From: an uncultured Caldimonas sp.
Lineage (GTDB): Bacteria; Pseudomonadota; Gammaproteobacteria; Burkholderiales; Burkholderiaceae
Assembly (NCBI RefSeq): GCF_946480305.1
Contig: NZ_CAMLJQ010000009.1
Coordinates: 72,582 to 136,581, forward strand
Length of the DNA stretch: 64,000 nucleotides
Reading direction: 5' to 3'
A program made the position numbers and the translations under genes. Below the pieces are notes generated by a model, which was given only the letters and a program-made list of their open reading frames with translations, searched no databases and had not been told where the DNA came from. How positions within the stretch are numbered: position 1 is the first letter of the stretch; every line of letters starts with the position of its first letter. Shown in pieces: positions 7,592 to 42,391 of the stretch.

Positions 7592-7627
7592 GCTCTGACT
7601 CCTGTTGAAGCCCGGGAGTCTGGAGCC

Positions 7628-8644: not shown

Positions 8645-8678
8645 GAGAGCCTCGCAACACGTTGTGCGCAAAGGCTCC

Positions 8679-8709: not shown

Positions 8710-8771
8710 GTGAATGTGCGCCCGGAGCCCGTGTCGGCGCTTGGCGGAGCGCAGCGTCGCCCGGCTTGCGC

Positions 8772-9873: not shown

Positions 9874-9916
9874 CTGTGGCTCCAGGCGGGCGGCACTCGC
9901 CGCCCGCGTGCTTCGG

Positions 9917-11557: not shown

Positions 11558-11568
11558 AAGGCGCCGAC

Positions 11569-12342
11569 GTGAGACACGCAGCCGGTGCCGCACCGTTGTC
11601 CGTGCGGGTGTTGACGGTCAACACCCACAAGGGATTCACGCCGCTGAACCGCCGCTTCATCCTGCATGAGTTGCGCGAGGCGGTGCGCAGCGTGTCGGCC
11701 GACATCGTGTTCCTGCAGGAGGTGCTGGGCACCCATGCCCGCCACCCCGAGCGCTTCGCGAACTGGCCGCAGGCGCCGCACTACGAGTTCCTGGCGGACT
11801 CGATGTGGAGCGACTTCGCCTACGGGCGCAACGCGATCTATCCGCACGGTCACCATGGCAACGCGGTGCTGTCGAAGTTTCCGATCACGCGCTATCAGAA
11901 CCGCGACGTCTCGATCGAGCGCAGCAAGGAGCGTCGCGGCCTGCTGCACTGCGTGCTGACGGTGCCGGGCGACGACAGGCAGGTGCATGTGATCTGCGTG
12001 CACCTGGGCTTGCGCGAGTCGCACCGCCGGCAACAGTTGCAGCTGCTGTGCGAACTGATCGAGCTGGAAGTGCCCGCCGATGCGCCGCTGGTGATCGCGG
12101 GCGACTTCAACGACTGGCGCCTGCGCGCCCACGAAGTGCTGCAACGCTGCGCCGGCCTGCGCGAGGTGTACGTCGAATCGCACGGCCACGCCGCGCGCAC
12201 CTTCCCGGCACGCTGGCCGGTGCTGCGGCTCGATCGCATCTACGTGCGCAACACGCGTTCTCACCGCCCCCTCACCTTGCCGCCCCGGCCGTGGTCACAC
12301 CTTTCGGACCATGCGCCGCTGGCGGCGGAGATCACCGTATGA
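11569..12342 (+). CDS. ybhP: Endonuclease/exonuclease/phosphatase family protein, YbhP-like
   Basis: A 257-residue EEP-fold metal-dependent phosphoesterase: [10 protein letters not shown] at the first strand, FLQEV with the catalytic Glu, GDFNDW with the catalytic Asp/Asn, and SDHAPL with the catalytic His near the C-terminus. I use the GTG at 11569 because AAAGG precedes it and the conserved domain begins about ten residues later. Its stop overlaps the clsB start (ATGA). The order ybhP-clsB-ybhN is the same as in Escherichia coli ybhP-ybhO-ybhN, and that context supports the name. A role in phospholipid metabolism is inferred; its substrate is not established. Confidence 0.85.
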
Positions 12343-13616: not shown

Positions 13617-14620
13617 ACACCGCTGCCCACAAGCGCCTGCACGCCGCGGCCGACGAGAACGACGGTGCGACCGGCTGGCGCGCCAGATGGCCGTTGATCA
13701 AGCGGGTGCTGACCTATGCGTTTTTCGCGGCCGTGCTTGCGCTGCTCGTCTCGCACGCGCGGCAGGTCGATTGGTCGGAGGTGGCCAATACGTTGCGTCG
13801 CTATCCGTTGCCCACGCTCGCGCTGGCAGCAGGGCTGGGTGCCGTCAGCCACCTGCTCTACAGCTGCTTCGACCTGTTCGGCCGCCGCTATACCGGCCAC
13901 GGACTGCGCCGCGCGCAGGTGATGACGGTCGGCTTCGTCAGCTATGCCGTGAACCTGAACCTGGGAGCGCTGGTCGGCGGTGTCGCCTTCCGCTACCGGC
14001 TCTATTCGAGGCTGGGTCTGGACAACGGCACGATCACCCGTGTGCTCGGCATGAGCGTGCTGACCAACTGGCTCGGCTACCTGATGCTCGCGGGCGCGGT
14101 GTTCGCGTCCCGCGCGATCGAAGTGCCGCCGCAGTGGAAGATCGGCAGCGGCGGCCTGCAACTGGTGGGGCTGGCGCTGCTGGCCGTCGTGGCGGCCTAC
14201 CTGGTGGCGTGCGTGCGTTCCCGGCGCCGCAGCTTCAGCGTGCGCGGGCACGAGATCGAACTGCCGCCGTGGCGCATGGTCGTCGTGCAACTGGCACTGT
14301 CATGCGCCAACTGGCTCGTGATTGCGGGTGTCGTGTATGTCTTGCTGCAACAGAAGGTGGACTACCCGGTGGTCGTGGCCGTGCTGATGGTGAGCGCGGT
14401 GGCGGGCGTGCTGACGCACATTCCCGCCGGCCTGGGCGTGATGGAGGCGGTGTTCATCAGCCTGCTCGGCGGCCAGGTGCCGCAAGGCCAGTTGCTGGCC
14501 GCGCTGCTGGCCTATCGGGCGGTGTATTACCTTGCGCCGCTGGCCGTGGCCGGGTTGCTGTACCTCACGCTGGAAGCCGGCGCCAAGAAGGCCGGGCCGC
14601 GCGAAGGAGCAAACGAGTGA
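13613..14620 (+). CDS. ybhN: YbhN/UPF0104 family membrane protein (LPG synthase-like transmembrane domain)
   Basis: A 335-residue integral membrane protein with about eight hydrophobic segments, matching the flippase-like transmembrane domain of lysylphosphatidylglycerol synthases (MprF N-terminal half) without the aminoacyl-transferase half. Typical family features are the HLLYSCFDLFGRRY segment and the HIPAGLGVMEAVF loop. Given its coupling to clsB it may move or organise anionic phospholipids across the inner membrane; that is inference. ATG at 13613 overlaps the clsB TGA. Three bases separate its stop from the stop of the convergent small gene. Confidence 0.88.
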   Translation: MNTAAHKRLHAAADENDGATGWRARWPLIKRVLTYAFFAAVLALLVSHARQVDWSEVANTLRRYPLPTLALAAGLGAVSHLLYSCFDLFGRRYTGHGLRRAQVMTVGFVSYAVNLNLGALVGGVAFRYRLYSRLGLDNGTITRVLGMSVLTNWLGYLMLAGAVFASRAIEVPPQWKIGSGGLQLVGLALLAVVAAYLVACVRSRRRSFSVRGHEIELPPWRMVVVQLALSCANWLVIAGVVYVLLQQKVDYPVVVAVLMVSAVAGVLTHIPAGLGVMEAVFISLLGGQVPQGQLLAALLAYRAVYYLAPLAVAGLLYLTLEAGAKKAGPREGANE

Positions 14621-14622
14621 AG

Positions 14623-14844
14623 CTACTGCTTGGTGGCCGAGAACGGCGCCACCACGCCGGCGCTTTCGGCAAGCTCGGCGAGCATCGCGCGGGCCACCGG
14701 ACTCAACGACTCGTTGTGCGAGGCGGCCTCCAGCGCCGAGGCGAAGGTGGCGTAGTTGCACTTGGAAGCGGCTGCCAGCGCGAGCAGCGACTGGCGCCAG
14801 ACTTGCTGGAGGATGTCCAGGGTTTCGGTCTGAGTCGGATTCAT
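14623..14844 (-). CDS. Small hypothetical protein (73 aa)
   Basis: A short alpha-helical protein, MNPTQTETLDILQQVW at the start, with no signal or membrane segment. The ATG at 14842-14844 has AGGA seven bases upstream on the minus strand. It has helix-forming Ala/Leu-rich sequence with conserved-looking aromatic residues (VWRQSLLAL, CNYATFASAL) and could be a short helical-bundle protein. The phasin-like pattern (Q..WRQSLLAL) is suggestive only. It converges with ybhN. Confidence 0.5.
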   Translation of the reverse strand: MNPTQTETLDILQQVWRQSLLALAAASKCNYATFASALEAASHNESLSPVARAMLAELAESAGVVAPFSATKQ

Positions 14845-15064
14845 CGGCGTCCTGCGAGGTAGGTGTCGTCAAGTTGCCGGGCCGAAATGGGCCCCGGCGC
14901 CGCTCTCTCGTCGGCACGAACGATGCAGCATACGCCGTACCCACCTCCATGTGAATTCACCAGATGTTGCGGCGCCTGCCCCTGCTCCTGTCGGTTCTGA
15001 CAGCCCTGATCGTCGCTGCCGGCGCGCACCGCGGCCACCTCGACGGCAGCTGCCGTGTCTGCCA

Positions 15065-16057
15065 ATGAAGAGCGCAGCATGCACCGTACGCGCCGCCACC
15101 TGCGCGCTGCTGGCGCTCGGCCTGCAGGCCGCCGGGGCCGCCGAGACCCTGCCCTCGCTGGCAATCGACCGCGAGGGCATCACCGTCTCGGGCCTGTCGT
15201 CGGGCGGGTACATGGCGGTGCAGTTGCAGGTGGCCTACGCCGCCACCTTCAGCGGCGTGGCAGCCGTGGCCGCCGGCCCCTACTACTGCGCCGAGGGCTC
15301 GGCGCGCCACGCGAGCGAGCGCTGCCTGACCGGCGAGCCCGAACCCCCGGTGACGCGCCTTGCCGCCATTACACGCGCATGGGCGGCGCTGGGCCTGATC
15401 GACGCCACGCATCACTTGCGGCACACCCGCGCCTATCTCTTCTCGGGTCAGCGCGACAGCGTGGTGCGCCCCGCCGTGACCGACGCGCTGGCCCGCTACC
15501 TGCGCGCCTTCGTGCCCGAAGCCGCCACGCGCTACCGCAACGACGTGCCGGCCGAGCACGGCATGGTCACCGACGACCATGGCCAGCCGTGCGGGCGCAA
15601 GGGCCGGCCGTTCATCAACGACTGCGATTTCGACCTCGCCGGCGAACTGCTGGCGCACCTGTACGGCCCCCTGCAGCCGCGCGGCCCGTCCCAGCCACCC
15701 GGCGGCCGTTTCGTCGAGTTCGACCAGCGCGAGTTCATCCGCGGCCGGGGCATGGCCGACAGCGGCTGGCTGTTCGTGCCCGACACATGCCAGCGCGACA
15801 CTGGTTGCCGCCTGCACGTGGTGCTGCACGGCTGCGGTCAGAACACGCAGCGGCTGGGCGACGAATACGTGCGCCACACCGGCTACAACCGCTGGGCCGC
15901 GACCAACCGCATCGTCATGCTGTACCCGCAGACCAGCAGCGATGCGCCGCACGCCTGCTGGGATTGGTGGGGCTACACCGGCCCCCACTACGCCCAGCGC
16001 ACCGCGCCGCAGATGGGCGCCATCAAGGCCATGGTCGAGCGCCTCACCGGCCGTTGA
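15065..16057 (+). CDS. PHB depolymerase family esterase (secreted)
   Basis: The 330-residue product has a Sec signal peptide (KSAACTVRAATCALLALGLQ, cleavage probably after AGAA). The catalytic domain has the lipase-box-like GLSSGGYMAVQ with its Ser, the oxyanion HGCGQ in VLHGCGQN, and the late CWDWWGY segment typical of polyhydroxybutyrate depolymerases that attack amorphous or oligomeric PHB. Five or more cysteines suggest disulphides in the periplasm. The start at 15065 is chosen because the signal peptide begins there. Substrate could be PHB, its oligomers or another ester. It stands alone between a small minus-strand gene and a LysR gene. Confidence 0.82.
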   Translation: MKSAACTVRAATCALLALGLQAAGAAETLPSLAIDREGITVSGLSSGGYMAVQLQVAYAATFSGVAAVAAGPYYCAEGSARHASERCLTGEPEPPVTRLAAITRAWAALGLIDATHHLRHTRAYLFSGQRDSVVRPAVTDALARYLRAFVPEAATRYRNDVPAEHGMVTDDHGQPCGRKGRPFINDCDFDLAGELLAHLYGPLQPRGPSQPPGGRFVEFDQREFIRGRGMADSGWLFVPDTCQRDTGCRLHVVLHGCGQNTQRLGDEYVRHTGYNRWAATNRIVMLYPQTSSDAPHACWDWWGYTGPHYAQRTAPQMGAIKAMVERLTGR

Positions 16058-16184
16058 GCCGCCCGCCGCAAACCCCCACGACTTGTTGAACCGCTCCTAA
16101 AGAGTCCTTAAACACGACTTTCCACAATCGCTCCCATCGGCAGGCGGCGTGTGCTCGCCCCGCCCAACAAAGCAGGAGTAGGGA

Positions 16185-17096
16185 ATGGATCGACTGCACT
16201 CGATGCGTGCGTTTGCGAAGGTGATCGACGAAGGCGGCTTTGCGGCGGCAGCCCGTGCGATGGATGTGTCGGCCGCTGCGGTGACGCGGCTGGTGGCCGA
16301 CCTGGAAAAACACCTGGAAGTGCGACTGATCCACCGCTCCACCCGCCGCCTGTCGCTCACGCCCACCGGCCAGGGCTACCTGGAACGCGTGCGCTCCATC
16401 CTGAAGCAACTCGACGAGGCGGAAGCCCAGGTGGACGCCACCGTGCGCAAGCCGGCCGGCACCGTGAAAGTCAGCGTGCCGTCTGCCGCAGTGGCCCGGT
16501 TGCTCACTGCACGCCTGCCGGCGCTGCAGCAGCAACACCCCAAGCTCGACGTGAGCCTGCGCGTGGCGGACAGCGCCGCCGACAACGAGGCCGACATCGC
16601 CCTGGTGCTCGGCGGCCACCAGGCCCCCGCCAGCCTGGAGGCCGACACCGTGGCCCGCGCGGTGCTGCGCAGCCGGGGCGTGCTATGCGCCGCCCCCGCC
16701 TACCTGAAGCGCGCCGGCACACCGCTCGAGCCGCAAGATCTGCAGCGCCACGCCTGCCTGCTGGCCAGCCCGGAAGGCACCGGCACACCGCAGCCCTGGC
16801 AACTCACGAGCGAGCACGACCGCCATGCGCGCCAGCAGGTGGCGGGCAACTCGAGCCTCAGCGCGCAGCACCCCGACACTCTGTATGCCGCTGCGCTGGG
16901 TGGCCTGGGCATCGTCGGCCTGCCTTCGCTGCTGCTCGAAGATGCACTGGCCGAAGGCCGCCTGGTCCCCGTGCTGCCCGAATGGGAGCCGCCCACGTTC
17001 ACGCTGTATGCGGCCATGCCGTCGCGCAAGTTCGTGCCGGCGCGCACGCGGGCCGTCATGGAATTCCTGGCGCACGGGCTCAAGACCGATGCGTAG
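16185..17096 (+). CDS. LysR-family transcriptional regulator
   Basis: A 303-residue LysR-type regulator: winged helix at residues 1-60 (MHSMRAFAKVIDEGGF type start, AVTRLVADLEKHLEVRLIHR, then STRRLSLTPTG) followed by the periplasmic-binding-like effector domain. The ATG at 16185 has AGGAG at 16172-16176. A weak sigma-70-like pair (TTGAAC at 16086, TAAACA at 16109, 17-bp spacer) lies upstream. No divergent partner gene faces it, so its target is not obvious from the context. Confidence 0.9.
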   Translation: MDRLHSMRAFAKVIDEGGFAAAARAMDVSAAAVTRLVADLEKHLEVRLIHRSTRRLSLTPTGQGYLERVRSILKQLDEAEAQVDATVRKPAGTVKVSVPSAAVARLLTARLPALQQQHPKLDVSLRVADSAADNEADIALVLGGHQAPASLEADTVARAVLRSRGVLCAAPAYLKRAGTPLEPQDLQRHACLLASPEGTGTPQPWQLTSEHDRHARQQVAGNSSLSAQHPDTLYAAALGGLGIVGLPSLLLEDALAEGRLVPVLPEWEPPTFTLYAAMPSRKFVPARTRAVMEFLAHGLKTDA

Positions 17097-21039: not shown

Positions 21040-22188
21040 TCACGCGGTATCTGCATTGGCAGGCCGAGGGGTGTCAGGTGACGCAGGCACCGTCCCGTTG
21101 GCCTGTTTCGACAACGCCTCCAAGTCCAGCCGCTCGCCCGCACCGGCCAGCATTTGCGGCGGCAGTTCGATGTCCCGCCCGAAGAAGTGGCTGATCCAGT
21201 TGAAGACGATGGAGAGCGTCATCACGCTGCCCATGAACGCGGGGGCGGTGTACCAGATGTTCTCGTCACCATGCTCGTGCCGCCAGATGTTGTAGGCGCC
21301 CCAGGCTAAGGCCGCCACGCCCAGCGGCCACACACCCGGCAGCATGGCCTGAGCCGACTGCAGCAGGTTGCTCGGATACGCCGGTGCCGGCGTGTCGCCC
21401 TTGTGCATCACCGGCCCGTCTTCTTCCATGTACCGCCGCACGAACTCCCACAGGTCCATCGCCATGCTGCGGCCGATCAGCAGCGGCGACGCCAGCGTGA
21501 AGCTGCCGATCACCCAGTTGCTGTCTGGCTGCTCCTTCACGTAGAACTGCAGCACATGCAGTGTCTTGGCCACCTTGCCCATCAACACGGTCTCTTCGAA
21601 ATACTCCGCCTCCAGGCAATCCCAGTCGTACTCGATCAGCACCATGGGCGGCCAGGGCTGGAAGGCCGTCAGCCAGTATTTGAAGATGCGGATCGGGTTG
21701 CTCAAATCTCGCTCGGGCATCTGCTGGACGAACTTGTAGACCTTGCGTGTCTTGCGGTTGAGCACCAGGGGCACGTCTTTGGGGCCGAAGAGTTCGATGC
21801 GAAAGATCCGAATCGCGATGCTGAGCGACAAGAAGGCACACACCAAGAGCCCTGCGATCAGGACGTCCATTACAAGCGTCCACACGTCTGCTGGGTATGT
21901 ATCGGTTAAATGAATCAGAACAATGAATTGGTAGACCCAATACAGACAAAACGCCGATCCAAAGAGGAAGCCAACTCCAAAAACACTTACGTAGCCCCGC
22001 ATGCCAGTGGGTGCCAACTGCAAGCTCACCGCATGCTCATGAGCACGCGACACCAAATGCAGGTTGTGCGGCGTCCCTGACGCCACCTGATCCTTCGGCA
22101 GATGCCGGGCATGCTTCGCACGATCGCTGACCGACAGCATGCCTGCTTCGCGCAAGTCATGCGCCGTCTTGTGGAGGTAGTCCGTCAT
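21040..22188 (-). CDS. DUF6708 domain membrane protein, copy 2 of tandem pair
   Basis: A 382-residue paralogue of the next gene. The N-terminal 68 residues and everything from IELFGPKDVPLV onward are almost identical to copy 1. Between them lies a different pair of membrane helices (SVFGVGFLFGSAFCLYW and DVLIAGLLVCAFLSLSIAI here). The ATG overlaps the stop of the effector gene (TCAT at 22185-22188 on the plus strand), so this copy is translationally coupled to the effector. The short C-terminal tail also differs (GTVPASPDTPRPANADTA). Coupling to a toxin-like gene supports an immunity or accessory role. Confidence 0.75.
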   Translation of the reverse strand: MTDYLHKTAHDLREAGMLSVSDRAKHARHLPKDQVASGTPHNLHLVSRAHEHAVSLQLAPTGMRGYVSVFGVGFLFGSAFCLYWVYQFIVLIHLTDTYPADVWTLVMDVLIAGLLVCAFLSLSIAIRIFRIELFGPKDVPLVLNRKTRKVYKFVQQMPERDLSNPIRIFKYWLTAFQPWPPMVLIEYDWDCLEAEYFEETVLMGKVAKTLHVLQFYVKEQPDSNWVIGSFTLASPLLIGRSMAMDLWEFVRRYMEEDGPVMHKGDTPAPAYPSNLLQSAQAMLPGVWPLGVAALAWGAYNIWRHEHGDENIWYTAPAFMGSVMTLSIVFNWISHFFGRDIELPPQMLAGAGERLDLEALSKQANGTVPASPDTPRPANADTA

Positions 22189-25100
22189 GATCGCGATTTT
22201 GCTGGTTCAAGCCGCGGGAACGGGCCTTCTGCTTCCTGCACCTTGTCCCAGGTGAGTGCATCGGCCTGGGCTTTTTGCAGTGCCCGCACAAACGCCTGTT
22301 CTTCAGGATCCCAGCGTTTGGGATCGTCATAGCCTTGCCCCAGCTTGCGGTACTTCGGGCTGTTGCCGAAGTAGCTGTGCTCGACCCACTCTTCCAACGG
22401 CGTGCGGTCCATGTACATCAGCAACCCTTCAGCCGAGAAGGCCAACACGGTGAGCACCAGCCCCCAGCCAGTGAGGCTCAGCCCCAGCCGTGCCCAGCCG
22501 TAGCCGAAGCGAAGGCCCACATAGCGCCCCGCCGAGTTCTTCACGCCACGCAGCGTGACGCCCTCGAGCAGCTGACGTTCAAGTATCCAGTGGTAGCCAA
22601 CTTCAACTGCGGCGGCACCTCCAAAGCCGCCGCCCACCAAATGGGCGGCTCCCACCGAAATGAAAGCAGCCCCTTTGCCACGCTTTCCATCACCCCACTT
22701 ATCCAATCCTCGCTTGAAGTTCTGGGCCGCATTCATGACCCCGCCGACGGCCCCAGCCAGTCCTGCCACCAAGAAGAACGTCGCCGCCACACCCGACATT
22801 GCCTTGCTGGCAAACGCCCCTTGCGCGAACTTCGCCTGCCGCATGTCGGCCGCCGCAAGGCCGGCCAACTCGAACATGCCCCCCGTCATCCCGGCCTGGT
22901 TGTCCCAAAGCCCCAGCTTGGTCATCAGGATCGCGTCGTTGATGGCCTGCTTCTGCTCCTCTGTGAGGTCCGGCCACTTCAACAGGCGCTCGCGCAACTG
23001 CTCGATCTTGGCGTCGTTCGTCTGGTACAGACTCCACTGCAACGCCACGCCAAACACCGACAGGCAACCGCCCAGGCCCGCAGCTTCCGACGCCGAAAGC
23101 GCGCGGCCCACCTGCTGCACGCCGCGCCCTGCAGCCCCGGCGACCTCCACCGCACCCCTGACCCCGCGTTCGATCGTGCCACCAGGGCCGGCAACGGTCT
23201 TCACGCCTTCGAGCGCACCGCGTGCCGGCGTCGACAACGCGAGCAAAGCCGCCGTGCTGGCCATCGGGATGCCTTCGCTTGCCACGCGCAAGGTGGAATT
23301 CTTGAGCTTGTCGAAGCGATGCGCCCGCGCAAAATGCTCGGCCAGCCACGCGGTGGTGACGTCGATAGTACGCATCAGCTTGGCGCCGCCGCCCAGCACG
23401 GTCAGCCGCAGGCTGGTCGATTCACGCCCCAGTGCCATCACGTCCTGCGAGTTGCGCAGCGTCACGTCGTCGCTGACCAGCTCGATCCACATGGCCTCGC
23501 GCCCGACCTTGCGCGCGAACGCCTCGTCGGTCATGACCTTGTTCCACAACGTGCGGGTCTTGCGGTTGAAGTTGACGCCGCGCTGCGACAGGTGCTCCAC
23601 CAGCTCCAGGAACTGCTCCAGCTCGATCCACACGCGTACGCGCACCGGGCGCGGTGGCGGCTGCCGGAACAGCACGCCGCGCAGCAGCATGCTGAACTGC
23701 TCGCTCCAGGCGTTGATCTTGTTGGAGAGCTTTTCTTCGGCCAGCTCCAGCAATTGCAGCCCGCGGTCCGCGCGGCTCACCGTGCTGGTCTGCGCATTCT
23801 TGGCGGCTTGCTCGGCCGCCTTGGCGAAGGCCGAGCTTTTGAGGTGTTCCGCCGCCCCTGAAAGAAACGCCTGCACGCTGAGGCTGAGTTCGATTCCAGC
23901 CTGGCTGAGCCAGCCGAACTTGGCGCGCACGTAGCCGCCGGTGTAGTCGTCGCTCAGCAGTGCCTTGAGGGTGTCGTAGCTCTTGTCGAGCTTGGCGTCG
24001 GGGTTGGTGTACCAGTTGACCGTGGCCGCCCAGAAGCTTTCCAGCTCGGCCACCAGCGCCTGCTGGTTGGCCACCATGGCACGCAGCACCCAGCCGGCGT
24101 CGCTGCTGGGTACGGCGGTGAGCCACTGGCGCATCAGCTCGGTCAATGCGGCCGTCGGCGGGCCGGCCATGAGCACGGCGCAGCATTCGCTCATGTACGC
24201 TTCGCCGGGTTTGTGCGGGCGCTGATGACTGTTGGGATCAGCCGGGTCGTAGTGCTTCTGCATGTAAGCCGCAAGCGGCGCCCAGCTCAGCAGCCGCTCG
24301 CGGTCGCGGTCGTGCTGCTCGACCAGCGCTTCGTAGCGCTTGACCTCCTGCTCGTACTGCTGCACGAACGCCTGTAGCGCAGCGCGGTTGTGCAGGCGGT
24401 CCATCTTCTGCGTTGCCTGTCCCGTGTTGATCTGCGCCAGTTGCTCGCGGGTGGTGAGAACGAGCCCTTGCGACGGGTTGTCGGCGTACTTGAGGTACAC
24501 CGCCTCGGCATGCACGTTGCGATGGATTTTCTTGTCGTTTTCGTAGCTCTGATAGCTCGTTTCCTGCTGCTGCAGCCATATGCCGCTTTTGGCAAGCTGC
24601 AGCGCAAGCCGAGCGTCTTTCTCGGTGAAGCGTTGGCGCCCCGATGAGGTTTTCAGATCGGCTTGCGTGAACGGCTTCAATGCACCGGATGCACCGGCCT
24701 TTTCTCGCGCCTGCTCGAGTTGGGCATCGTAGATCTTGGCGCGGATCATTTCGATGGTGCCGGCGGATTTCAGCCCATGGCTCTTGCTGTGGGCGTAGTC
24801 CAGGCTCTGCTTGTAGCGTGCCCCGGAGATGTGCGCCAGCGCCTGGGCCGTGCCCACCGGGTCGCGCAGAACATAGGCAAACCCCTTGCCGGCCGTCTGC
24901 GGGTGGCCGGCCGACAGCGCCTGGATGCGTTGGGCAAGCAAGGTGCCGTTGCCTTTCACGGCCGCCAGCGGTTGCGCTCCGGCGTACCGTGCATGCTCCA
25001 GCGTATGCAACGCAAAGTCGGCCACATGTTTGTTGAACCACTGTGCGTCCGGCGCAGGAACGAAGGGCGACGCCTTGCGCGGCGCCTTCATGAACGCCTC

Positions 25101-25688
25101 GGTGTTGCCGGCCAGCGCCGCCTGGATGTCGATGCGCTCCATGACGGCGAGGTCGCCCTTGTTGCGAGCACGCAGCTCGCGGCTCCAGAGGTTGCCGCTC
25201 ACGGCCACCCGGATGCCAGTGGCCAGATGCGCGTCGCGCAGCCTATAGGTCATGGCGGTGTAGATGTGCGTGCCGCCGTCCTTGGTGCAGGCGAACGGGG
25301 CCGGCGCGTCGAAGCACGGGTGGTCCTGAGGCACCAGCGCGCCCCCGGGGATCATGCGCAACACTTCCCAGTGGGCCTCGTCGGGATCCCTGTCCTTGGG
25401 TGCGCGGCGCTTGTCGAGTTCGGCGGCCCGTTTCTTCAGCCACGCGGGCGGAGTCTCGTGGTAGATGTGCAGGTAGGTGCCCGGCCGCAAACTGCGCAGC
25501 ACCAGCTTGGCCGCGGCGAGTGTGGGTAACCCGAGAGCGGCGACGGAGTCGCCGTGCGTCTCGAGTTCGCTGGCCTCGCTGGGTGCAAGGGTTTGGTCGA
25601 TGGCGACGGCGGCATGGCTCAGGAAGACGATGCCCAGACCGCTGTAGTCGCAGATGGAGCAGGTGGACGTCGGTTGCGGTTGCGTCAT
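22185..25688 (-). CDS. T6SS effector, BTH_I2691/VasX-like
   Basis: A 1167-residue protein. The N-terminus has a Cys-x2-Cys (CSIC, Cys10 and Cys13) followed by DYSGLGIVFLSHAAVA, the signature start of VasX-N/BTH_I2691-family effectors loaded through a VgrG. A long central part is mostly helical. The last third has about four hydrophobic segments, including GVAATFFLVAGLAGAVGG and LGLSLTGWGLVLTVLAF, separated by basic loops, consistent with a pore-forming or membrane-disrupting toxin. It follows a DUF4123 adaptor with ATGA overlap and is followed by DUF6708 with another ATGA overlap. Membrane permeabilisation is inferred from VasX; the target is not shown. Confidence 0.85.
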   Translation of the reverse strand: MTQPQPTSTCSICDYSGLGIVFLSHAAVAIDQTLAPSEASELETHGDSVAALGLPTLAAAKLVLRSLRPGTYLHIYHETPPAWLKKRAAELDKRRAPKDRDPDEAHWEVLRMIPGGALVPQDHPCFDAPAPFACTKDGGTHIYTAMTYRLRDAHLATGIRVAVSGNLWSRELRARNKGDLAVMERIDIQAALAGNTEAFMKAPRKASPFVPAPDAQWFNKHVADFALHTLEHARYAGAQPLAAVKGNGTLLAQRIQALSAGHPQTAGKGFAYVLRDPVGTAQALAHISGARYKQSLDYAHSKSHGLKSAGTIEMIRAKIYDAQLEQAREKAGASGALKPFTQADLKTSSGRQRFTEKDARLALQLAKSGIWLQQQETSYQSYENDKKIHRNVHAEAVYLKYADNPSQGLVLTTREQLAQINTGQATQKMDRLHNRAALQAFVQQYEQEVKRYEALVEQHDRDRERLLSWAPLAAYMQKHYDPADPNSHQRPHKPGEAYMSECCAVLMAGPPTAALTELMRQWLTAVPSSDAGWVLRAMVANQQALVAELESFWAATVNWYTNPDAKLDKSYDTLKALLSDDYTGGYVRAKFGWLSQAGIELSLSVQAFLSGAAEHLKSSAFAKAAEQAAKNAQTSTVSRADRGLQLLELAEEKLSNKINAWSEQFSMLLRGVLFRQPPPRPVRVRVWIELEQFLELVEHLSQRGVNFNRKTRTLWNKVMTDEAFARKVGREAMWIELVSDDVTLRNSQDVMALGRESTSLRLTVLGGGAKLMRTIDVTTAWLAEHFARAHRFDKLKNSTLRVASEGIPMASTAALLALSTPARGALEGVKTVAGPGGTIERGVRGAVEVAGAAGRGVQQVGRALSASEAAGLGGCLSVFGVALQWSLYQTNDAKIEQLRERLLKWPDLTEEQKQAINDAILMTKLGLWDNQAGMTGGMFELAGLAAADMRQAKFAQGAFASKAMSGVAATFFLVAGLAGAVGGVMNAAQNFKRGLDKWGDGKRGKGAAFISVGAAHLVGGGFGGAAAVEVGYHWILERQLLEGVTLRGVKNSAGRYVGLRFGYGWARLGLSLTGWGLVLTVLAFSAEGLLMYMDRTPLEEWVEHSYFGNSPKYRKLGQGYDDPKRWDPEEQAFVRALQKAQADALTWDKVQEAEGPFPRLEPAKSRS

Positions 25689-26704
25689 GAGCGTTCTCCC
25701 TCGGCGCGGTCGATGCCGCGTGTTGTTGTGGTGTCGAGTGCCTCTTGCGTGGGGCTCGTCGCGAGCGCTGCGAGGCGGTCATCCAGGCTGCCGGGGTCGA
25801 CTGCCGCGGCAGCCACGCACGCTTGCGCTGCCGCGGCGAAGGCCAGCCCCGGGGAGACGACGGCACGCCAAACGTAGGCCTGCAGGTCGCCGGGATGGTT
25901 GATGCGCCGGCCGAGTGCATGGTCCAAGGCGTCCCAGGCAGTGGCGTGCGCGTGGGTCGGCAGGTGCCCGGTGTGCGCCTGTGCGGTGGTCAACGCCTTG
26001 GAGACCACGACGCTGTAGCGCTCCAGCCGGCGGTACTGCATGAGGTCGATCGGCGCATGCGCAGGCGTTTGCTCGAAGCGGGCGAGCCGCTCGGCGCGGC
26101 GGAAGAAGTCTTCTTCGGCGTCGATCAGGCTTTCGTCGGCCAAGCCGAGATGGCTAGCCCAAAGGCCATCGCGTTGGCGCACGTGCCAACGCGCGATGGG
26201 GCCGAGCCACTTGGCGACCACATCAGTCCCGAGCAGGCCGGCGAGCATCTCGAAGCCGCGCGGGTCGGCCACTTGCAGGTAGGGCTTGCCGCCGTAGACG
26301 CGGCCTTTCCACATCTCCTGCAGGCGCAGCATGAGGCGCTGGGCCGGCAGGGCGGTTTCGATGAAGGCGCCCATGGTGAAGGCGCCTTTGCCGGATTCGG
26401 CAGCTGCCGCAGCTTCTTGGCGGGCGAACTCGAGCAACTGGGCGTACAGGGGGTCTTGGGGGCCCTCCAGGGCTACCAGATAGGGCAGCCGCAGGGGATC
26501 GTTGGCAGGCTGGTCGCTTTCAGCCAGCTCGATCGGCCGACCGCCCCATGCCTCGGCGCGCTTGGCGCGCAGTTCGTCAAAGCTGCTCGCGTGGGTGCCA
26601 GCGCCTAGCAACGAGGGTTCGCCGGCAAATGCGTTGATCAAGGCGTAGAGTGGCAGGCCGCACAAGCTGGGTTGCGGGCCGGTCATGAGGAGCCGGGCGG
26701 TCAC
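25685..26704 (-). CDS. DUF4123 domain protein (T6SS effector adaptor)
   Basis: A 339-residue protein lying between vgrG and the effector, the standard position of DUF4123 adaptors that load a specific effector onto the VgrG tip. The N-terminal third (LYALINAFAGEPSLLG, PYLVALEGPQDPLYAQLLE, and a segment with LMLRLQEMWKGRVYGGKPYL) follows the DUF4123 pattern; the rest is a helical C-terminal lobe. I use the GTG at 26702-26704, which overlaps the vgrG stop as GTGA with GGAG upstream; an ATG at 26684-26686 is the alternative. Its stop overlaps the effector start. Expected to be cytoplasmic and not secreted. Confidence 0.82.
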   Translation of the reverse strand: MTARLLMTGPQPSLCGLPLYALINAFAGEPSLLGAGTHASSFDELRAKRAEAWGGRPIELAESDQPANDPLRLPYLVALEGPQDPLYAQLLEFARQEAAAAAESGKGAFTMGAFIETALPAQRLMLRLQEMWKGRVYGGKPYLQVADPRGFEMLAGLLGTDVVAKWLGPIARWHVRQRDGLWASHLGLADESLIDAEEDFFRRAERLARFEQTPAHAPIDLMQYRRLERYSVVVSKALTTAQAHTGHLPTHAHATAWDALDHALGRRINHPGDLQAYVWRAVVSPGLAFAAAAQACVAAAAVDPGSLDDRLAALATSPTQEALDTTTTRGIDRAEGERS

Positions 26705-29547
26705 GGGAAGAGCGCTCCGTCCAGGCCGTCTTGCATGCTGGTCTGCGGACACGGCGGCAGCGTCTTGGGCTGAGGCAAGGTGAGCGAAGTGCTGGCACTT
26801 TGCGGCCCCGTCAACTCCTTCATGCTCGCCTTGAACCTCGCCGCGCCCGGAGTGGTCAGCGTGATGTTGCCGCCCTCGAGGCGCAACGCCGAGCCGCCGG
26901 CCGTGAGCAGCACGTGATTGGGTGCGCCCATCTGGATGCTGTCGTGCGTGCTGGTCGCATCGATGCTCTTGTCGGCGGTGAGCTTGATCGCGTCTTTGTG
27001 TGCATGCACCGCCACATTGCCAGTGCCGGCGTGCAGCTTGATCCCCGTCTCCTGGTTCGGCTTGCTCGCGTTGCTCGCCTTGCCATACGTGAACCAGCTG
27101 ATGCCGTTGGCCACCACCAGGCTCTTGTGACGTTGGGCGTTGGTGGTGAGATCCTGGCCTGCGACCAGGCTCAGGGTGCTGCCCGCGCTCCAGACGGCAT
27201 GGGCCGGTGTGAAGACGCCGATGCCGGCCGGGGCGCTGACGAGCAGGTTGGGCTTGAGCCAGGCTTTGACGGAACCGGCTCCGCCGTCGACCTGGTTCGG
27301 GTCTCCCGTGCCGGCATGGCCGCGCTGGTCGGTCGCCTCGGTCTGTTCCTTCAGCGCCTGCTGCGCCTTAGGCGTCGGCAACTCCTTCGGCGCCGGCTCG
27401 TCCTTCAGCTGCGCCTTGTGCTTCTGCGCAGTGTCGATCAGCGTAGTGGTGAGTTCGGCCGCCTGCTGCAGTTGCTGCTCGGCCTCGCCGGTGTCGAGCT
27501 GGTGCGTGCTGCCGGTCGAGCCTGCAGCCCTGTTGTGCGCGCTCAGCAGCAGGCCTGCGCCAGCGCGCAAGGCGCCTTGCGCTTCCGTTTGCAGCTCGGC
27601 CCCGTGGCCACGGTCGTGCAGTCTTCGGTTGTCTTGCTGATGAATCGCGTGGCCGAGGTTGAGCTGGCTGCGCTTGGTGGTGGTGGCGAGCTGGATGCGG
27701 CCCTGGGTGGGGCTGTCGTCGAAGACGAGCTGGTTGTAGCCGCCGGCCCCGTGCTGGCTGGCTTGCAGCTCCTGGGTCTTGAAACCGGCCATCACGGCCG
27801 GGTGCTGGTGGCCCTGGTGCTTGCCGCTGGCCTGGGTGCCGGGGAACCAGGCCGGGGCGTTGCCGGTGGCGGTGGCGGCACCGCCTGCAACCTGGTTGCC
27901 TTGGGCATCCGGCTGGCCGGTGCCGTTGTAGACGCTGCCGATGCACACGGGGCGGTCGATGTCGCCGTCGAGATAGGCGATCAGGACTTCCTGGCCGAGC
28001 CGGGGGACGAAGTTGGCGCCCCAGTTGGCGCCGGCCACGGGGGTGGCCACGCGCACCCAGGTGCCGCTGCCGTCGCTGGCGGGGGCGTTGTCGGTGGTGG
28101 GGTGGGCCAGGCGGTGGCTGGCGTTGCCGCCGCGCTGCCAGTGGAACTGGACCTTGATGCGGTGGTCGCGGTCGGTGTGCACGGGGTGGCTCAAACCCAC
28201 GACGATGGCGGTCTGGGTGCCGTGGATGGTGGGCCGGGCGTGGCGCACGGTGGCCTGCGGGCCGGCGGTGGGGGCGTGGGTGTCGTCGAGGGCGGCGGCA
28301 CGCAGCGGCACGTCGGCCTGCAAGGCAGTGAGCTCGACGGTGTACAGCGGCTCGTCGCTGGCGTTGGCGGTTGCCGTGGCCAAGGGGCTGTGGCCGAGCA
28401 GCGCAGTGATGTGGGCCTGGTGGTCGGCGCTCAGGTTGTTGCGGGCGCGGTGCTTGAGCTTGAGGAGGGTGTAGCGGTCTTGCTCGCTGCCGTTGTGCAG
28501 GGGGTGGTCGCGCAGCGTGAAGGTGGTGCCGGGGGCGAAGCTGCGCACGGTGCCGGCGCCGCTGTGGAGCTGGGCGGCGGCGTCGAGCGCTTCTTGCTGG
28601 CGGCGCGCGAGGCGTTCGCCCTGGCGGCTGTCTTCGTAGGCGTAGAGGCCGGGCACGTCGGTGCAGCCGGCGCTGGGCAGCGGGTGGGTCACGACGCTCT
28701 GGGCGTTGACGGGGCGCAGGTGCACGCCGCGGTAGTCCCAGCTGGCGATGGCGACGCTTGCGGTGTGCACGCGGCGGCGGGCGCCCCAGGTGCGCAGGCT
28801 GTCTTCCTTGAGGGTGGCGCCGGGCTGGGTGTAGCGTACTTGTGCTTGCGCGTTGGGCGGGCAGGCGCCGTTGTGGTCGGCGATGACCAGGGTGTGGCTG
28901 CCGTAGGGGTCGCTGCGGGCGTCGCCCTGGTGTTCGAACCAGCAGAACAGGCCTTCTTCGCGCAGCAGGCGCTGCACGAAGGCGAGGTCGCTCTCCTGGT
29001 ACTGGATGCACAGGGAGCGTTGGGGGTAGGCCTCGGGGTCGGCCAAATCCCAGCGCCAGGCGGGGGTCAGGCGGCCTTGGCCCTGGTAGGTGTTGAAGAC
29101 TTCTTCGACGATCTCGATGACGCTGCGGTGCTGGAACACTCGGCTGTCGCGGCGCCAGTCGAGGAAGGCGAGCCAGGGGCGCACGACGAGCCGGTAGCGG
29201 GCGAGGCCGCCGTCGGCACCGAGCAGCGCGGCTTCGGTGAAGTGGCCGTGGAAGGGGCGCAGCTCGCTGCGGCTGGCCTGGGTGAGCAGCTCCAGCAGCA
29301 CGGGCTGGCCGATGAGTTTCTTGAGTTGGATGTGGGTGTCGGCGCTCAGCGCGGTGAGCTGCAGGCAGAAGCCGCAGGCGTCGAGCGCGCTCTCGCCGCT
29401 GGGGGCGATGGATTCGTCGATCTGCACGCGCTCGGCGAGCAGCACTTCAGGCCCGAGCGGGGTCGACAGGCGCAGCAGCCGGTCTTGCTGGGTGTAGCCG
29501 GAGACGATGGCCTGCGCGACGGAGGCGAGTGAGAGGCGGTCGTTCAT
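26701..29547 (-). CDS. vgrG: Type VI secretion system tip protein VgrG
   Basis: A 948-residue VgrG. The gp27-like base occupies about residues 1-380 (RLLREEGLFCWFEHQGD is typical), then the gp5/OB region with the diagnostic VPRLGQEVLIAYLDGDIDRPVCIGSVYNG, then a DUF2345 beta-helix needle region and a C-terminal extension ending near LDGALFP. VgrG trimers cap the Hcp tube and deliver effectors. No sheath, baseplate or Hcp genes are in the window, so this is an orphan vgrG cluster served by a main T6SS locus elsewhere. It heads the operon vgrG-DUF4123-effector-DUF6708. The strand opposite has a very long spurious frame caused by codon bias. Confidence 0.95.
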   Translation of the reverse strand: MNDRLSLASVAQAIVSGYTQQDRLLRLSTPLGPEVLLAERVQIDESIAPSGESALDACGFCLQLTALSADTHIQLKKLIGQPVLLELLTQASRSELRPFHGHFTEAALLGADGGLARYRLVVRPWLAFLDWRRDSRVFQHRSVIEIVEEVFNTYQGQGRLTPAWRWDLADPEAYPQRSLCIQYQESDLAFVQRLLREEGLFCWFEHQGDARSDPYGSHTLVIADHNGACPPNAQAQVRYTQPGATLKEDSLRTWGARRRVHTASVAIASWDYRGVHLRPVNAQSVVTHPLPSAGCTDVPGLYAYEDSRQGERLARRQQEALDAAAQLHSGAGTVRSFAPGTTFTLRDHPLHNGSEQDRYTLLKLKHRARNNLSADHQAHITALLGHSPLATATANASDEPLYTVELTALQADVPLRAAALDDTHAPTAGPQATVRHARPTIHGTQTAIVVGLSHPVHTDRDHRIKVQFHWQRGGNASHRLAHPTTDNAPASDGSGTWVRVATPVAGANWGANFVPRLGQEVLIAYLDGDIDRPVCIGSVYNGTGQPDAQGNQVAGGAATATGNAPAWFPGTQASGKHQGHQHPAVMAGFKTQELQASQHGAGGYNQLVFDDSPTQGRIQLATTTKRSQLNLGHAIHQQDNRRLHDRGHGAELQTEAQGALRAGAGLLLSAHNRAAGSTGSTHQLDTGEAEQQLQQAAELTTTLIDTAQKHKAQLKDEPAPKELPTPKAQQALKEQTEATDQRGHAGTGDPNQVDGGAGSVKAWLKPNLLVSAPAGIGVFTPAHAVWSAGSTLSLVAGQDLTTNAQRHKSLVVANGISWFTYGKASNASKPNQETGIKLHAGTGNVAVHAHKDAIKLTADKSIDATSTHDSIQMGAPNHVLLTAGGSALRLEGGNITLTTPGAARFKASMKELTGPQSASTSLTLPQPKTLPPCPQTSMQDGLDGALFP

Positions 29548-33969: not shown

Positions 33970-34019
33970 CGAACCGCTGGCCGGATGCAAGCGGCAGTAA
34001 CAAGACAGGAAACAGCTGC

Positions 34020-34304
<285 letters not shown>

Positions 34305-38915: not shown

Positions 38916-39848
38916 TTACTCCACCTTCTTCTTCACGAGCGCGTCGAAGGTTTCCTGGTTCACCGGCGAACGCAGGCGGCCGTTGTTGAGCAGCAGCAAC
39001 ACGGTGTCGACGTTGTCTTCCTGCACGACGATGCGGCCGTCCTGCACCACCAGGCCCCATTGCTCCTTCTCGTTGAGTTCGAGCAGGCGTTGCATGAAGC
39101 GCCGGTCGCGGTAGTAGCCGTTGCGGTCGAGCGCGGAGATGCGGCGCAGCCGCGGCAGGCTGGTGCCCACCGCATCGCGCAACGGTGCGACGTCGACGAA
39201 GATGCCCGCCTCATCGAACTCCTGCAGCACCGCGTCGCGCACGCGCTCCATGCCGAGCCGGAAGTTCAGCGCGCTTTCGAACTGCCGCTTGTTGCAGATG
39301 AACAGCGCGCCGCCGTGTGCAAAGAAGTCGAAGCCGCTCGCCAGCGTGAACACCTGGCGCTCTTCGAGGTCGATCAGCATGTGGTCCTGCCACAGCAGGT
39401 TGCGCAGCCCCTTCACGCGGCGGGTGCTGCTTTGCGCGGCGGTTTTCTTCACCGCATCGAGCACGGCTTCCTTGTGCTGCAGGCGCACCACGTAGCACCA
39501 GGAGTTGAGCAAGTCGTCGAGCGATTGCGCGCGCGGCGCATCGAGGCCCTTGTCGATCTTCTTCGCGATCAGCGGGTAGTCGGTCTCTTCGGCGGGCAGC
39601 GTCAGCACGCTGTCGTCCTGGTCCTCGGAGATGAACTCATACGGTTCGGTGCGATGCGGGCTCGCCGCCAGCGCGGTCACCTCCTCGTGCAACCGCTGTT
39701 GCAGGCGCGTGTCGATGTCCACCCCCGTCACGTCGTAGCGTGCCCGCCGGTCGGCCAGCCGGCGCTTGACGATCCACAGGCTGGCCGTGGCGGCGGACCA
39801 GTCCGCCTGCTGCAAGGCTCTCAGCGGCGCGGAGCTGTCGTCTTTCAT
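38916..39848 (-). CDS. kwaB: Kiwa anti-phage protein KwaB (DUF4868)
   Basis: A 310-residue soluble protein of the DUF4868 family: N-terminal helical part, then DLLNSWCYVVRLQHKEAVLDAVKK, a central GFDFFAHGGALFICNKRQFE core and a C-terminal helix-rich region (LLLLNNGRLRSPVNQETFDAL). DUF4868 next to a four-helix membrane protein defines the Kiwa system. In published work KwaA senses infection at the membrane and KwaB acts on phage DNA. Its ATG overlaps the kwaA stop as ATGA, so it is translationally coupled. It is the last gene of a three-gene minus-strand operon and converges with the hybrid kinase gene. Confidence 0.88.
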   Translation of the reverse strand: MKDDSSAPLRALQQADWSAATASLWIVKRRLADRRARYDVTGVDIDTRLQQRLHEEVTALAASPHRTEPYEFISEDQDDSVLTLPAEETDYPLIAKKIDKGLDAPRAQSLDDLLNSWCYVVRLQHKEAVLDAVKKTAAQSSTRRVKGLRNLLWQDHMLIDLEERQVFTLASGFDFFAHGGALFICNKRQFESALNFRLGMERVRDAVLQEFDEAGIFVDVAPLRDAVGTSLPRLRRISALDRNGYYRDRRFMQRLLELNEKEQWGLVVQDGRIVVQEDNVDTVLLLLNNGRLRSPVNQETFDALVKKKVE

Positions 39849-40393
39849 GCCTCGCGCTCCACGCGCGTGACGAAGTAGAGGAAGTTCGACAGCCGCGTGA
39901 CGTGGCAGCGGTCGCCGGGCCTGAACTCGTCGCGCGACAGCAGCAGCCCCTGGCGCTCGTGCGCGCCTTCCTTGAAGGTGCTGTCGTACAAGCCGTAGCC
40001 CACCAAGCCGAGGATGGGGTTCACGAGGATGCTGCGCGTGCGGTGGGCCAGCGAGAACATCATCGCCAGGAACAGCCCCAGGCAGAGCAGCGTGCGCCAG
40101 TCTCCGAGGTTGAAGTTGTAGAACGAGATCATGTAGGGCACGGTGTACGCGAACAGCTCGCCGGACTTGTTGCCGACCTTGGTCACCAGCACGGGCAGCC
40201 CGTCGGGGATGGTGCGCACCACCAGGCCGAGCGCCAGCAGGCACAGCACCGCGCTCAACGCGATCACGCCGGCAAACACCGGGTGTTGCGGATGGGCGGT
40301 GACTGGGTCGAGATCCTTGATGATGACGATGACCGCGAGCGGAAAGTACGAGCCCGCGAAGATCAGCAGCGACGGCCACAGGCGCAGCTTCAT
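39845..40393 (-). CDS. kwaA: Kiwa anti-phage membrane protein KwaA
   Basis: A 182-residue integral membrane protein with four hydrophobic segments: SLLIFAGSYFPLAVIVII (about 8-25), FAGVIALSAVLCLLALGLVV (about 38-58), LLCLGLFLAMMFSL and ILVNPILGLVGYGLY. A hydrophilic C-terminal tail (about 135-182, DRCHVTRLSNFLYFVTRV) faces the cytoplasm. Size, topology and the SYFPLAVIVIIKDLD start match KwaA. It overlaps kwaB and begins 14 bp after the protease-nuclease stop. KwaA is the membrane sensor of Kiwa; identification rests mainly on the pairing with DUF4868. Confidence 0.87.
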   Translation of the reverse strand: MKLRLWPSLLIFAGSYFPLAVIVIIKDLDPVTAHPQHPVFAGVIALSAVLCLLALGLVVRTIPDGLPVLVTKVGNKSGELFAYTVPYMISFYNFNLGDWRTLLCLGLFLAMMFSLAHRTRSILVNPILGLVGYGLYDSTFKEGAHERQGLLLSRDEFRPGDRCHVTRLSNFLYFVTRVEREA

Positions 40394-40407
40394 GCGGCAA
40401 CGCCTGG

Positions 40408-42321
40408 TCAACGTTTGCGGCGCGGGAAGCGCACGTCTTCGGGCCGTCGGATCTCGATGCCCGGCATCCAGCGCGGCACGCGCTCCGGGCCGATGCGATC
40501 GGCATAACGGTCGGCCTCGCGCAGTGCCTTGCCGAAGTGCAGGCCAGTGAGCTGCTCGATGCGCACGAGCGGCACCTGGTAGGTCTTGAAGCGCCCGTAA
40601 TGGAACGCCTCGGCCACCATCGTCTCCTGCGACAGCAGGTAGGCCGCGCAGGCGAGCTGTTGCGTGTCGGCCTCCACCAGCACGGCCACCTTCCAGAAGC
40701 GCATGGGCACCTGCACGCCGAGCACCACCGGGTCCGCATCGGTGAACACCGGGCCGGTGAACACGCTCACCTTCAGGTCCAGCGCGTCGGCGTTGTCGAG
40801 CACGTAGTCTTCGAGCTCCAGCCATTCCTTCTGGTTGAGCCCCGGGTGCTGGGGCGCCGCGTTGGTGTAGTGGAAGCTGTCTTCGTTGGCGCGCGCAGCC
40901 TCGTCCGCCGCGCCCCATACCGGGTCTTCGCGCCGCACCATGTGACCGCGGTCGAAGCCGGTGGGGCCGTAGAACTCGCCGCCCACCTGTTGCTCGCGCG
41001 CGATGCGCGAATCGAAGAACCAGGTCTGCCCCTTGCGTGACAGCTTCATGCGCGCGGTGCCGTCGATGTTGACGGCCGTCACCGCAGGCAGCCGACGTTG
41101 CTCGTGCATGCGCACGCTGAAGTGGGTGTAGTCGAGCCGCCACGGGTCCTTGCCGTCGCCCACCTTCAGCAAGCCCTCGCCCTTCGGCGGTTTGGGCAGC
41201 GGTACCTGCGGGCCGAGAAAGCGCTCGTCGTAGCCGGCGGCCGTGTAGGCCTTGCGGGGGCGCAGCTTCTCGGCCAATGGCTCCAGCGACGCGCCGGGCA
41301 CGGTGGTGCGGGCGCGCGCGACGTGCAGCATCTCGAACACCGTGTCGATGCGCACGGCGTAGTTCGCCTTGCGATGCGCGCCGGCGTAGTGCAACCCCAG
41401 CGCCTTGCCGGTTTCCAGATCGAGGATCACGCTGCCCGAGTTGCCGCCCAGCGTGGTCGCGTCGTGCTCGAAGTACCACTGGTCGCGTTCGGCGGCCATC
41501 ACCTCGCCGGGGGCGAAGCGTTTCACGTCGTAGATGTCGCCGAAGATGCGGTCCATCAGGCGCGAGTCGCTGCGGCTGTCGCGTGCCGGGTAGCCCACCA
41601 CCGCCATGAAGCGGCGCTTGCGCAATGCCTTGGCGAGTGCCTCCACCGGCTGGATCGGCGGCGGCAGCGCCGCGCCGTCGGCGCCGGGCACCACACGAAG
41701 AAAGGCCACGTCGGGCGAGCCTTCGCTGTGCGGCGCAATGTAGAGCACACGCTCGATGCGGAACTCCGCCGCCACCACCGAGCGGTATTCCTCATGAAAG
41801 TCGATGCGTGGCAGCACCTCGGCCCCCGCCTGGTTGCGGATGAAGACGTAGCCCAGCCCCGTGGCATCGCGCCGCGAGAATTCGTCGGCCACGTGGCGGT
41901 TGGTCACGATCACGTCCTCCTCGATCATCCAGCCGGTGCCCACCCAGTCCAGCTCCGGGTGCCCGACGAGCTCGACACGCCCCACCGAGCGCAAGGCCGG
42001 TTCGAAGGCGCTCGCATGCTTCGCAATGCGGCGCGACAGCACGTCGGACGACGGCAAGGTCACCCGGTGGTTCTCGACCAGCAGCACAGGCCGTGCCTGC
42101 GCGCGCACGATCGCCTCGGAGAGCGGACGGCTCTCGAACTCGTCGCCGGAGGGGGCTTCGTCGAGCAGGGAAACCAGCGTGCGGGTGTCGACGTCCCACT
42201 GGCTGCCGAGTTCGTTGTCTGCGGCGCGGCGCTGCAGTTCGCAGCGCAACTCCTTGTCGCCGAGGATGGAGGTCATCGTGCGCCGGCGGGCGCTGCGTTC
42301 GAGTTCGCTGTCGGTCGGCAT
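40408..42321 (-). CDS. Trypsin-like protease fused to DRGH (NUC-family) nuclease, Kiwa-linked
   Basis: A 637-residue two-enzyme fusion. Residues about 110-335 form a trypsin-like protease with the complete triad: His143 in TNRHVADE, Asp204 in PDVAFLRV and Ser295 in GGNSGSV. Residues about 395-610 form a DNA/RNA non-specific endonuclease (NUC/EndoG type) with DRGH (His460) in GFDRGHMVRR and the metal-binding Asn496 in HPGLNQKEW. No signal peptide is seen, so both act in the cytoplasm. The first roughly 100 residues are helical and charged. It is the first gene of the operon with kwaA and kwaB (14-bp gap). The likely role is a nuclease effector controlled by proteolysis during phage infection; this is inference from domains and context. 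Confidence 0.85.
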   Translation of the reverse strand: MPTDSELERSARRRTMTSILGDKELRCELQRRAADNELGSQWDVDTRTLVSLLDEAPSGDEFESRPLSEAIVRAQARPVLLVENHRVTLPSSDVLSRRIAKHASAFEPALRSVGRVELVGHPELDWVGTGWMIEEDVIVTNRHVADEFSRRDATGLGYVFIRNQAGAEVLPRIDFHEEYRSVVAAEFRIERVLYIAPHSEGSPDVAFLRVVPGADGAALPPPIQPVEALAKALRKRRFMAVVGYPARDSRSDSRLMDRIFGDIYDVKRFAPGEVMAAERDQWYFEHDATTLGGNSGSVILDLETGKALGLHYAGAHRKANYAVRIDTVFEMLHVARARTTVPGASLEPLAEKLRPRKAYTAAGYDERFLGPQVPLPKPPKGEGLLKVGDGKDPWRLDYTHFSVRMHEQRRLPAVTAVNIDGTARMKLSRKGQTWFFDSRIAREQQVGGEFYGPTGFDRGHMVRREDPVWGAADEAARANEDSFHYTNAAPQHPGLNQKEWLELEDYVLDNADALDLKVSVFTGPVFTDADPVVLGVQVPMRFWKVAVLVEADTQQLACAAYLLSQETMVAEAFHYGRFKTYQVPLVRIEQLTGLHFGKALREADRYADRIGPERVPRWMPGIEIRRPEDVRFPRRKR

Positions 42322-42391
42322 GAAAAGGCGCGAGGGTGATGGCGCAAGAGCGTAGCGCCACGGCCGCCGCGCAGTGGTAACAAGGGGCGCT

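Follow-up and report, generated by a model that had tools for sequence, protein, structure and literature searches.

A trypsin-nuclease fusion gene directly precedes a divergent kwaAB pair in a lineage of Caldimonas

Organization of the three-gene locus

A 64,000-nucleotide stretch of DNA from an uncultured Caldimonas sp. (contig NZ_CAMLJQ010000009.1; the whole stretch is referred to here as the window) carries on its minus strand a gene for a trypsin-NUC fusion protein (40408..42321, 637 aa), followed by kwaA (39845..40393, 182 aa) and kwaB (38916..39848, 310 aa), the two genes of the Kiwa system. All three open reading frames (ORFs) are intact. The fusion gene ends 14 bp before kwaA, and the stop codon of kwaA overlaps the start codon of kwaB by 4 bp. 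An earlier note, made from the sequence of the window, had read the locus in this way, and the coordinates confirm its account of the spacing and the shared strand. The 637-residue product, the trypsin-type triad (His143, Asp204 and Ser295) and the DRGH nuclease motif (His460, with Asn496) that it described are likewise all in place.

The two downstream proteins have the hallmarks of Kiwa: a KwaA-type membrane protein, a KwaB/DUF4868 domain, and kwaA directly followed by kwaB. Both are recognized by PADLOC (E of 4.2e-52 for KwaA, which has hydrophobic stretches at residues 5-28 and 35-70, and of 6.3e-117 for KwaB). KwaB also scores 90.3 bits with PF16162, well over the cut-off of that family (26.3); the Pfam copy used has no family for KwaA. 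In agreement with these assignments, the top matches to the predicted KwaB fold are six solved KwaB chains (E of 1.1e-8 to 1.8e-7, TM of approximately 0.5, 9-10% identity). In contrast, the NCBIfam equivalogs NF041622 and NF041623 are not reached, with KwaA scoring 52 bits against a cut-off of 100 and KwaB scoring 22 against 200. Because these scores fall far under the cut-offs, the pair belongs to a divergent branch of Kiwa rather than to the canonical system. The locus thus differs from two-gene Kiwa both in these sub-cut-off scores and in its third gene.

Architecture of the fusion protein

Three regions, all encoded on the minus strand, can be distinguished in the fusion protein. An N-terminal helical bundle (approximately residues 6-76; 42094..42306) is seen in the secondary structure of the AlphaFold model (mean pLDDT of 85.8) and has no Pfam match at E≤0.1. 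It precedes a Trypsin_2 domain (approximately residues 128-310; 41392..41940; Pfam E=1.8e-13), which holds the catalytic triad, and an Endonuclease_NS (NUC) domain (approximately residues 395-601; 40519..41139; Pfam E=1.5e-47), which holds the D457-R-G-H460 motif, Asn496 and Glu504. The last of these is taken here to be the third nuclease active-site residue. In the Pfam, PADLOC, NCBIfam, homology and AlphaFold runs, the protein was entered without its first Met (636 aa), and the numbering there is one lower.

By structure comparison of the AlphaFold model, the nearest folds of the protease are the V8/Esp/Spl glutamyl-endopeptidase-like and HtrA proteases, and those of the NUC domain are EndoG and the Serratia nuclease. 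The protease region is also matched by the PADLOC models for a 'nacht' protein and a reverse transcriptase-protease. Among 70 aligned fusion homologues, Ser295 is identical in 70 and His143 in 69, and the nuclease residues His460, Asn496 and Glu504 are each identical in all 70. His311, in the G-L-H motif of the protease, is equally invariant (70/70). In V8 protease, the matching His presumably contacts the glutamate at P1; by analogy, the fusion would be predicted to cleave after Glu.

The trypsin-NUC architecture is itself already published, as LypC of the CARD-NLR-like LypABC system of Caulobacter crescentus, in which a trypsin-like protease and an endonuclease are joined in one chain (PMC13236601). 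By a comparison of published residue numbers, Ser296, His471 and Asn505 of LypC lie at nearly the same positions as Ser295, His460 and Asn496 of the window protein. LypABC has an NLR/CARD partner, whereas the window fusion has kwaAB in its place. A CARD-NLR system in the window was considered and rejected, as neither an NLR-like ATPase nor a CARD protease was found by Pfam in ten neighbouring ORFs between 22 and 46 kb. Trypsin-like proteases are also reported to activate a nuclease in Hachiman and AVAST (PMC12799240). The pairs given there for Hachiman, AVAST, Lamassu and defence-associated reverse transcriptases (DRT) differ from the window protein: their MBL-fold nuclease has a gene of its own, and the fusion partner of the protease is a defence enzyme, whereas in the window the protease shares one chain with an EndoG-like Endonuclease_NS nuclease. 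The terms 'Kiwa' and 'KwaB' are absent from the main text of that paper.

Conservation within the Caldimonas clade

To judge from the sequences compared, the three genes form a compact unit in which the catalytic sites are kept and the fusion is under purifying selection. The fusion is present at 75-86% identity in four of nine sampled genomes of the genus of Caldimonas mangrovi S2-27, and the order fusion-kwaA-kwaB is found in all four: C. mangrovi (L005), Aquabacterium sp. A7-Y (L006), L109 and L110. A juxtaposition confined to a single assembly was rejected on this basis, the arrangement being common to five genomes. In all five, the unit occupies one chromosomal site, flanked by P450, ABM, ArsR and LysR genes on one side and a PAS histidine-kinase gene on the other. 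The fusion and kwaA are 14 bp apart in the window; elsewhere in the clade the spacing is −4, 56, −4 and 8 bp, so that two of the five genomes have a 4-bp stop-start overlap. The fusion gene is intact in every clade genome, with no internal stops and with nine checked active-site residues identical in 5/5. Over ten pairs, its pN/pS is 0.22-0.42; the LysR neighbour is alike (0.21-0.39) and the P450 gene is higher (0.52-0.78).

Genomes of the genus in which the fusion is missing were also compared. G162 (site L111) retains VgrG and the ABM, P450, ArsR and LysR genes; the kinase, kwaB, kwaA and fusion genes were not found there. In the remaining four, the LysR side of the site is all that was recognized, and these genomes are therefore uninformative on gain or loss of the unit. 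One of these four, C. caldifontis (L034), carries a different, unlinked kwaAB.

The upstream side raises the question of whether the unit is part of a longer operon, P450-ABM-fusion-kwaAB, that serves metabolism or a stress response. The P450 and ABM genes lie ahead of the fusion on the same strand in 5/5 genomes, and a promoter scan found no sigma-70-like promoter in the gap between ABM and the fusion (42322..42391, minus strand). However, this gap holds a GTTACC element that, in an alignment of the five upstream stretches, is common to the window and three of the four other clade genomes and is possibly a regulator site. In addition, G162 keeps the P450 and ABM genes without the fusion or kwaAB, and the P450 gene evolves faster than the fusion. 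The longer operon is accordingly considered very improbable.

Partners of the divergent KwaAB branch

A pattern scan that covered one genome from each of 84,980 species returned 34 kwaB relatives. In 33 of these, kwaA is adjacent; the other (L036) lies at a contig end without kwaA, and two of the 33 loci (L018 and L020) share a genome. The fusion is found at only 2/33 kwaAB loci, L005 and L006. Twelve other loci have an SNF2/type III partner set (a DrmD-like SNF2 helicase, type III methyltransferase or type III restriction gene), 12 have a type I set (HsdM, HsdS and HsdR genes in or beside the locus) and seven have none of these. A single cluster member at any position of the retrieved sequence was enough for a type I or type III label, and the counts are lower bounds, since 5/33 loci are on contigs under 5 kb. 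The label rests on one gene each in L026, L030 and L033 and in the short contigs L014, L020 and L024. Genes were called with a simple ORF scorer. Pfam and PADLOC searches with one representative per cluster (from L016 and L025) gave the names of the restriction families, and the remaining genes were assigned by BLAST clustering.

The coupling to these partners is often close. The hsdS gene overlaps kwaA by 4 bp in L025, L028, L029 and L037, the SNF2 gene overlaps kwaA in L008, and the methyltransferase gene of L007 begins 3 bp past the kwaB match. Two loci from other searches, L123 and L116, also lie beside type I or SNF2/type III genes, which brings the total to 26/35; L116, which adjoins type I genes, is the one locus that a search of viral contigs with the KwaB alignment returned. 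In contrast, no SNF2/type III or type I genes were found near eleven canonical kwaAB loci (L003, L004, L119-L122 and L124-L128), which were checked for the type I, type III and SNF2 families, the fusion and its halves. The difference (26/35 divergent versus 0/11 canonical) gives a Fisher p of 1.3e-5, a value that serves as a guide only because the loci are related. L004, where the KwaA match is partial, has a DNA cytosine methyltransferase gene near kwaB on the other strand.

Within the branch, the type of partner tracks the KwaAB tree. In a tree of KwaA plus KwaB, one clade (support of 100) contains the type I set and the other (100) the type III and fusion sets, and the five fusion loci cluster with a support of 88. 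The partner labels require six changes on 38 tips, whereas 2000 label shuffles required at least 15 (mean of 19.9); in this test, each of the five fusion loci counts as a tip of its own although they occupy one site. By sequence, the KwaAB of the fusion loci groups with the restriction-partnered branch; no restriction partner was found in L005, L006 or the ten scanned ORFs of the window.

Several kwaAB loci have other neighbours. A subtilase gene (Peptidase_S8, 777 aa) lies 102 bp 5′ of kwaA in L027 (3678-6011), a further example of a Kiwa-adjacent protease. On a Paraburkholderia plasmid, an annotated serine protease gene (L122, 7042-7836) lies 145 bp downstream of a canonical kwaB. AAA_13 proteins immediately adjoin kwaAB in L015 (10967-13195) and L031 (6963-9314); the anticodon nuclease PrrC belongs to this family.

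Proposed role of the fusion

In the studied Kiwa system, KwaA is reported to assemble into tetramers in the membrane, to which dimers of KwaB bind, and KwaB binds injected DNA but does not cut it (PMC12904381). A tentative proposal, held with somewhat less than even confidence, is that the Caldimonas locus represents a three-gene variant of Kiwa specific to this lineage, with a protease-gated nuclease as the DNA-cutting partner. In such a variant, KwaA in the membrane would sense phage injection, as in studied Kiwa, and KwaB would bind the incoming DNA without cutting it. The cut would be supplied by the partner, which would be the restriction system in most members of the branch and the EndoG-like NUC domain in the fusion clade. 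The NUC domain would be kept inactive within the full-length chain until, upon an infection signal from KwaA/KwaB, the fused protease freed it by cutting either its own linker or a partner. The earlier note had similarly suggested a nuclease that may be freed by its own protease once KwaA senses infection. The freed NUC domain may then degrade the DNA of the phage close to the membrane, or else any DNA, the latter resulting in cell death. In favour of the proposal are the retention of the gene order and of the active-site residues in all five clade genomes, the fusion/kwaA overlap in two of them, the pN/pS of the fusion, the joint absence of the fusion and kwaAB from G162, the restriction genes at 24/33 loci of the branch and at two further loci, the agreement of partner type with the KwaAB tree, the reported lack of DNA cutting by KwaB, and the protease-activated nucleases of Hachiman and AVAST.

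Outside the clade, the fusion and kwaAB are mostly found apart. No fusion match at E≤1e-10 was found anywhere in 31 of the 33 kwaB genomes, which are the genomes of all 34 loci (L020 shares its genome with L018). Fusion or half-fusion matches were found in 13/399 family genomes and 24/398 phylum genomes (C. mangrovi is in both), samples in which at most three candidates were scored per genome, so that misses are possible, and in which many matches are to one domain only. In none of the 12 other family-sample genomes and none of the 23 other phylum-sample genomes was kwaA or kwaB found within 1.5 kb of the match, as measured from the match and not from the gene ends. Several observations weigh against the proposal. 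The nearest kwaAB pair from beyond the clade (P0146, 70%, and P0128, 54%) is on a 32593-base contig, and none of the 120 fusions listed of 1991 homologues is on a contig of that size. For the nearest outside fusions (P0007, P0008 and P0011), no KwaA or KwaB among those listed is on a contig of equal size, which argues against adjacency to kwaA without settling it. On the KwaA+KwaB tree, the sister group of the fusion clade is the type III/other clade, a topology that fits equally with or without a replacement of restriction genes by the fusion. No linker Glu is invariant among the 70 homologues (Glu351 is present in 48/70 and Glu347 in 38/70), and one conserved self-cleavage site is therefore not favoured. 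Finally, the three-gene form has one origin and one syntenic site, at which unrelated neighbours are also retained; its retention is thus by itself no proof of joint function.

Because the fusion lies mostly elsewhere and is missing from nearly all kwaB genomes, it is best read as a lineage-specific partner and not as a general third component; the idea of a general Kiwa component was rejected for these reasons. The earlier note had itself named a fusion found mostly away from kwaAB as evidence against its reading, and this is what was found. Its description of a third Kiwa component holds for the tight unit and the intact active sites of the five clade genomes, and fails as a general statement.

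Alternatively, the fusion may be an independent defence or cell-death gene that landed before kwaAB once in a Caldimonas ancestor, the link being one of neighbourhood or co-transcription only. Relatives of the fusion are apart from kwa genes in 35/35 sampled genomes, most kwaB genomes lack a match, and the site and its neighbours are inherited together. A Pseudomonas aeruginosa fusion (P0012, 48% identical over 94%) has the same architecture but stands solo, between ilvA and a LysR gene. However, an unlinked function is harder to reconcile with the stop-start overlap of the fusion and kwaA in 2/5 genomes, and with a KwaAB branch in which close coupling with a partner upstream is the usual state and the type of partner follows the tree. 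An independent fusion is on balance a distinctly possible, if somewhat doubtful, explanation.

A different division of labour within the fusion is suggested by LypC, in which S296A is reported to have abolished lysis and H471A/N505A not (PMC13236601). This dispensability of the nuclease residues argues against a simple nuclease model. By analogy, the protease of the window protein could be the working part, cutting a host, phage or Kiwa protein, with NUC acting as a scaffold or minor effector. The protease residues Ser295 and His143 are conserved as well as the nuclease site. In contrast, the invariance of His460, Asn496 and Glu504 argues that the nuclease is in use, and a working role of the protease in place of the nuclease is considered improbable.

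If the protease-gated nuclease proposal is correct, the separable protease and nuclease sites of the fusion would allow point mutants to answer whether Kiwa can direct a nuclease to injected DNA; KwaB is reported to bind phage DNA without cutting it (PMC12904381). Kiwa would also join Hachiman, AVAST, Lamassu and DRT (PMC12799240) as one more unrelated defence system that has recruited a protease-nuclease unit. A broader and rather doubtful extension is that this whole branch of Kiwa does not stand alone and is instead a membrane and injection-site targeting module, in which KwaA/KwaB would catch incoming phage DNA and pass it to an operon-encoded cutter: a type I system in one clade, an SNF2-helicase/type III system in another and, in the Caldimonas clade, a protease-gated EndoG-like nuclease. 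The kwaAB loci in or beside type I and type III operons resemble the window in branch and in tight coupling and differ in that the partner is a restriction system and not a protease-nuclease. The earlier note knew of no three-gene Kiwa, and in agreement with this, no paper on a three-gene or restriction-embedded Kiwa was found in a literature search that had most subscription papers, including the Cell 2025 Kiwa paper, outside its scope.

Other members of the fusion family and neighbouring features

A protein search returned 1991 fusion homologues at E≤0.001 among 7997 scored candidates; the fusions given by P number are among the 120 listed. When 75 fusions were placed in a tree rooted at its midpoint, the window clade grouped with P0007, P0008 and P0011 (support of 1.0), and the fusions of L098, L101, L103 and L107 fell apart from it. 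These four and L099 are the wider contexts in which both domains are strongly matched. Of all 17 wider contexts, 16 were readable, and in these the nearest four called genes to either side of the match include no kwa gene; in the other (L096), no fusion gene was called. One sampled genome with a fusion-type match (G208) carries kwaB on a separate contig. The L107 fusion precedes a pair of trypsin genes and one NB-ARC/AAA_16 gene, an order like that of CARD-NLR systems, and the L101 and L103 fusions adjoin other trypsin, subtilase or AAA genes. No defence gene was found among the few neighbours checked in L098 and L099. In viral contigs, the fusion-alignment search returned two protease-domain matches at 32% (L117 and L118), the former with no real kwa match.

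The L107 row (7028-16844) also holds a weakly lysozyme-like ORF (Pesticin PF16754, E of 0.0015, under the cut-off). Its product might act as a lytic effector of a type that LypABC lacks.

Around the Kiwa unit of the window, a terminator scan gave three terminator-like sites, all on the opposite strand (shuffle mean of 2.2), an Rfam search of 29-47 kb gave no match, and a tRNA search found none. A type VI secretion cluster lies nearby, with a gene for VgrG (26701-29547) and a large VasX_N-domain ORF (22185-25688). Finally, a 173-bp intergenic stretch of the window (34018-34190), without an Rfam match, is 84% identical to positions 7713-7885 of L111, the site without the Kiwa unit, where it is flanked by VgrG and ABM.

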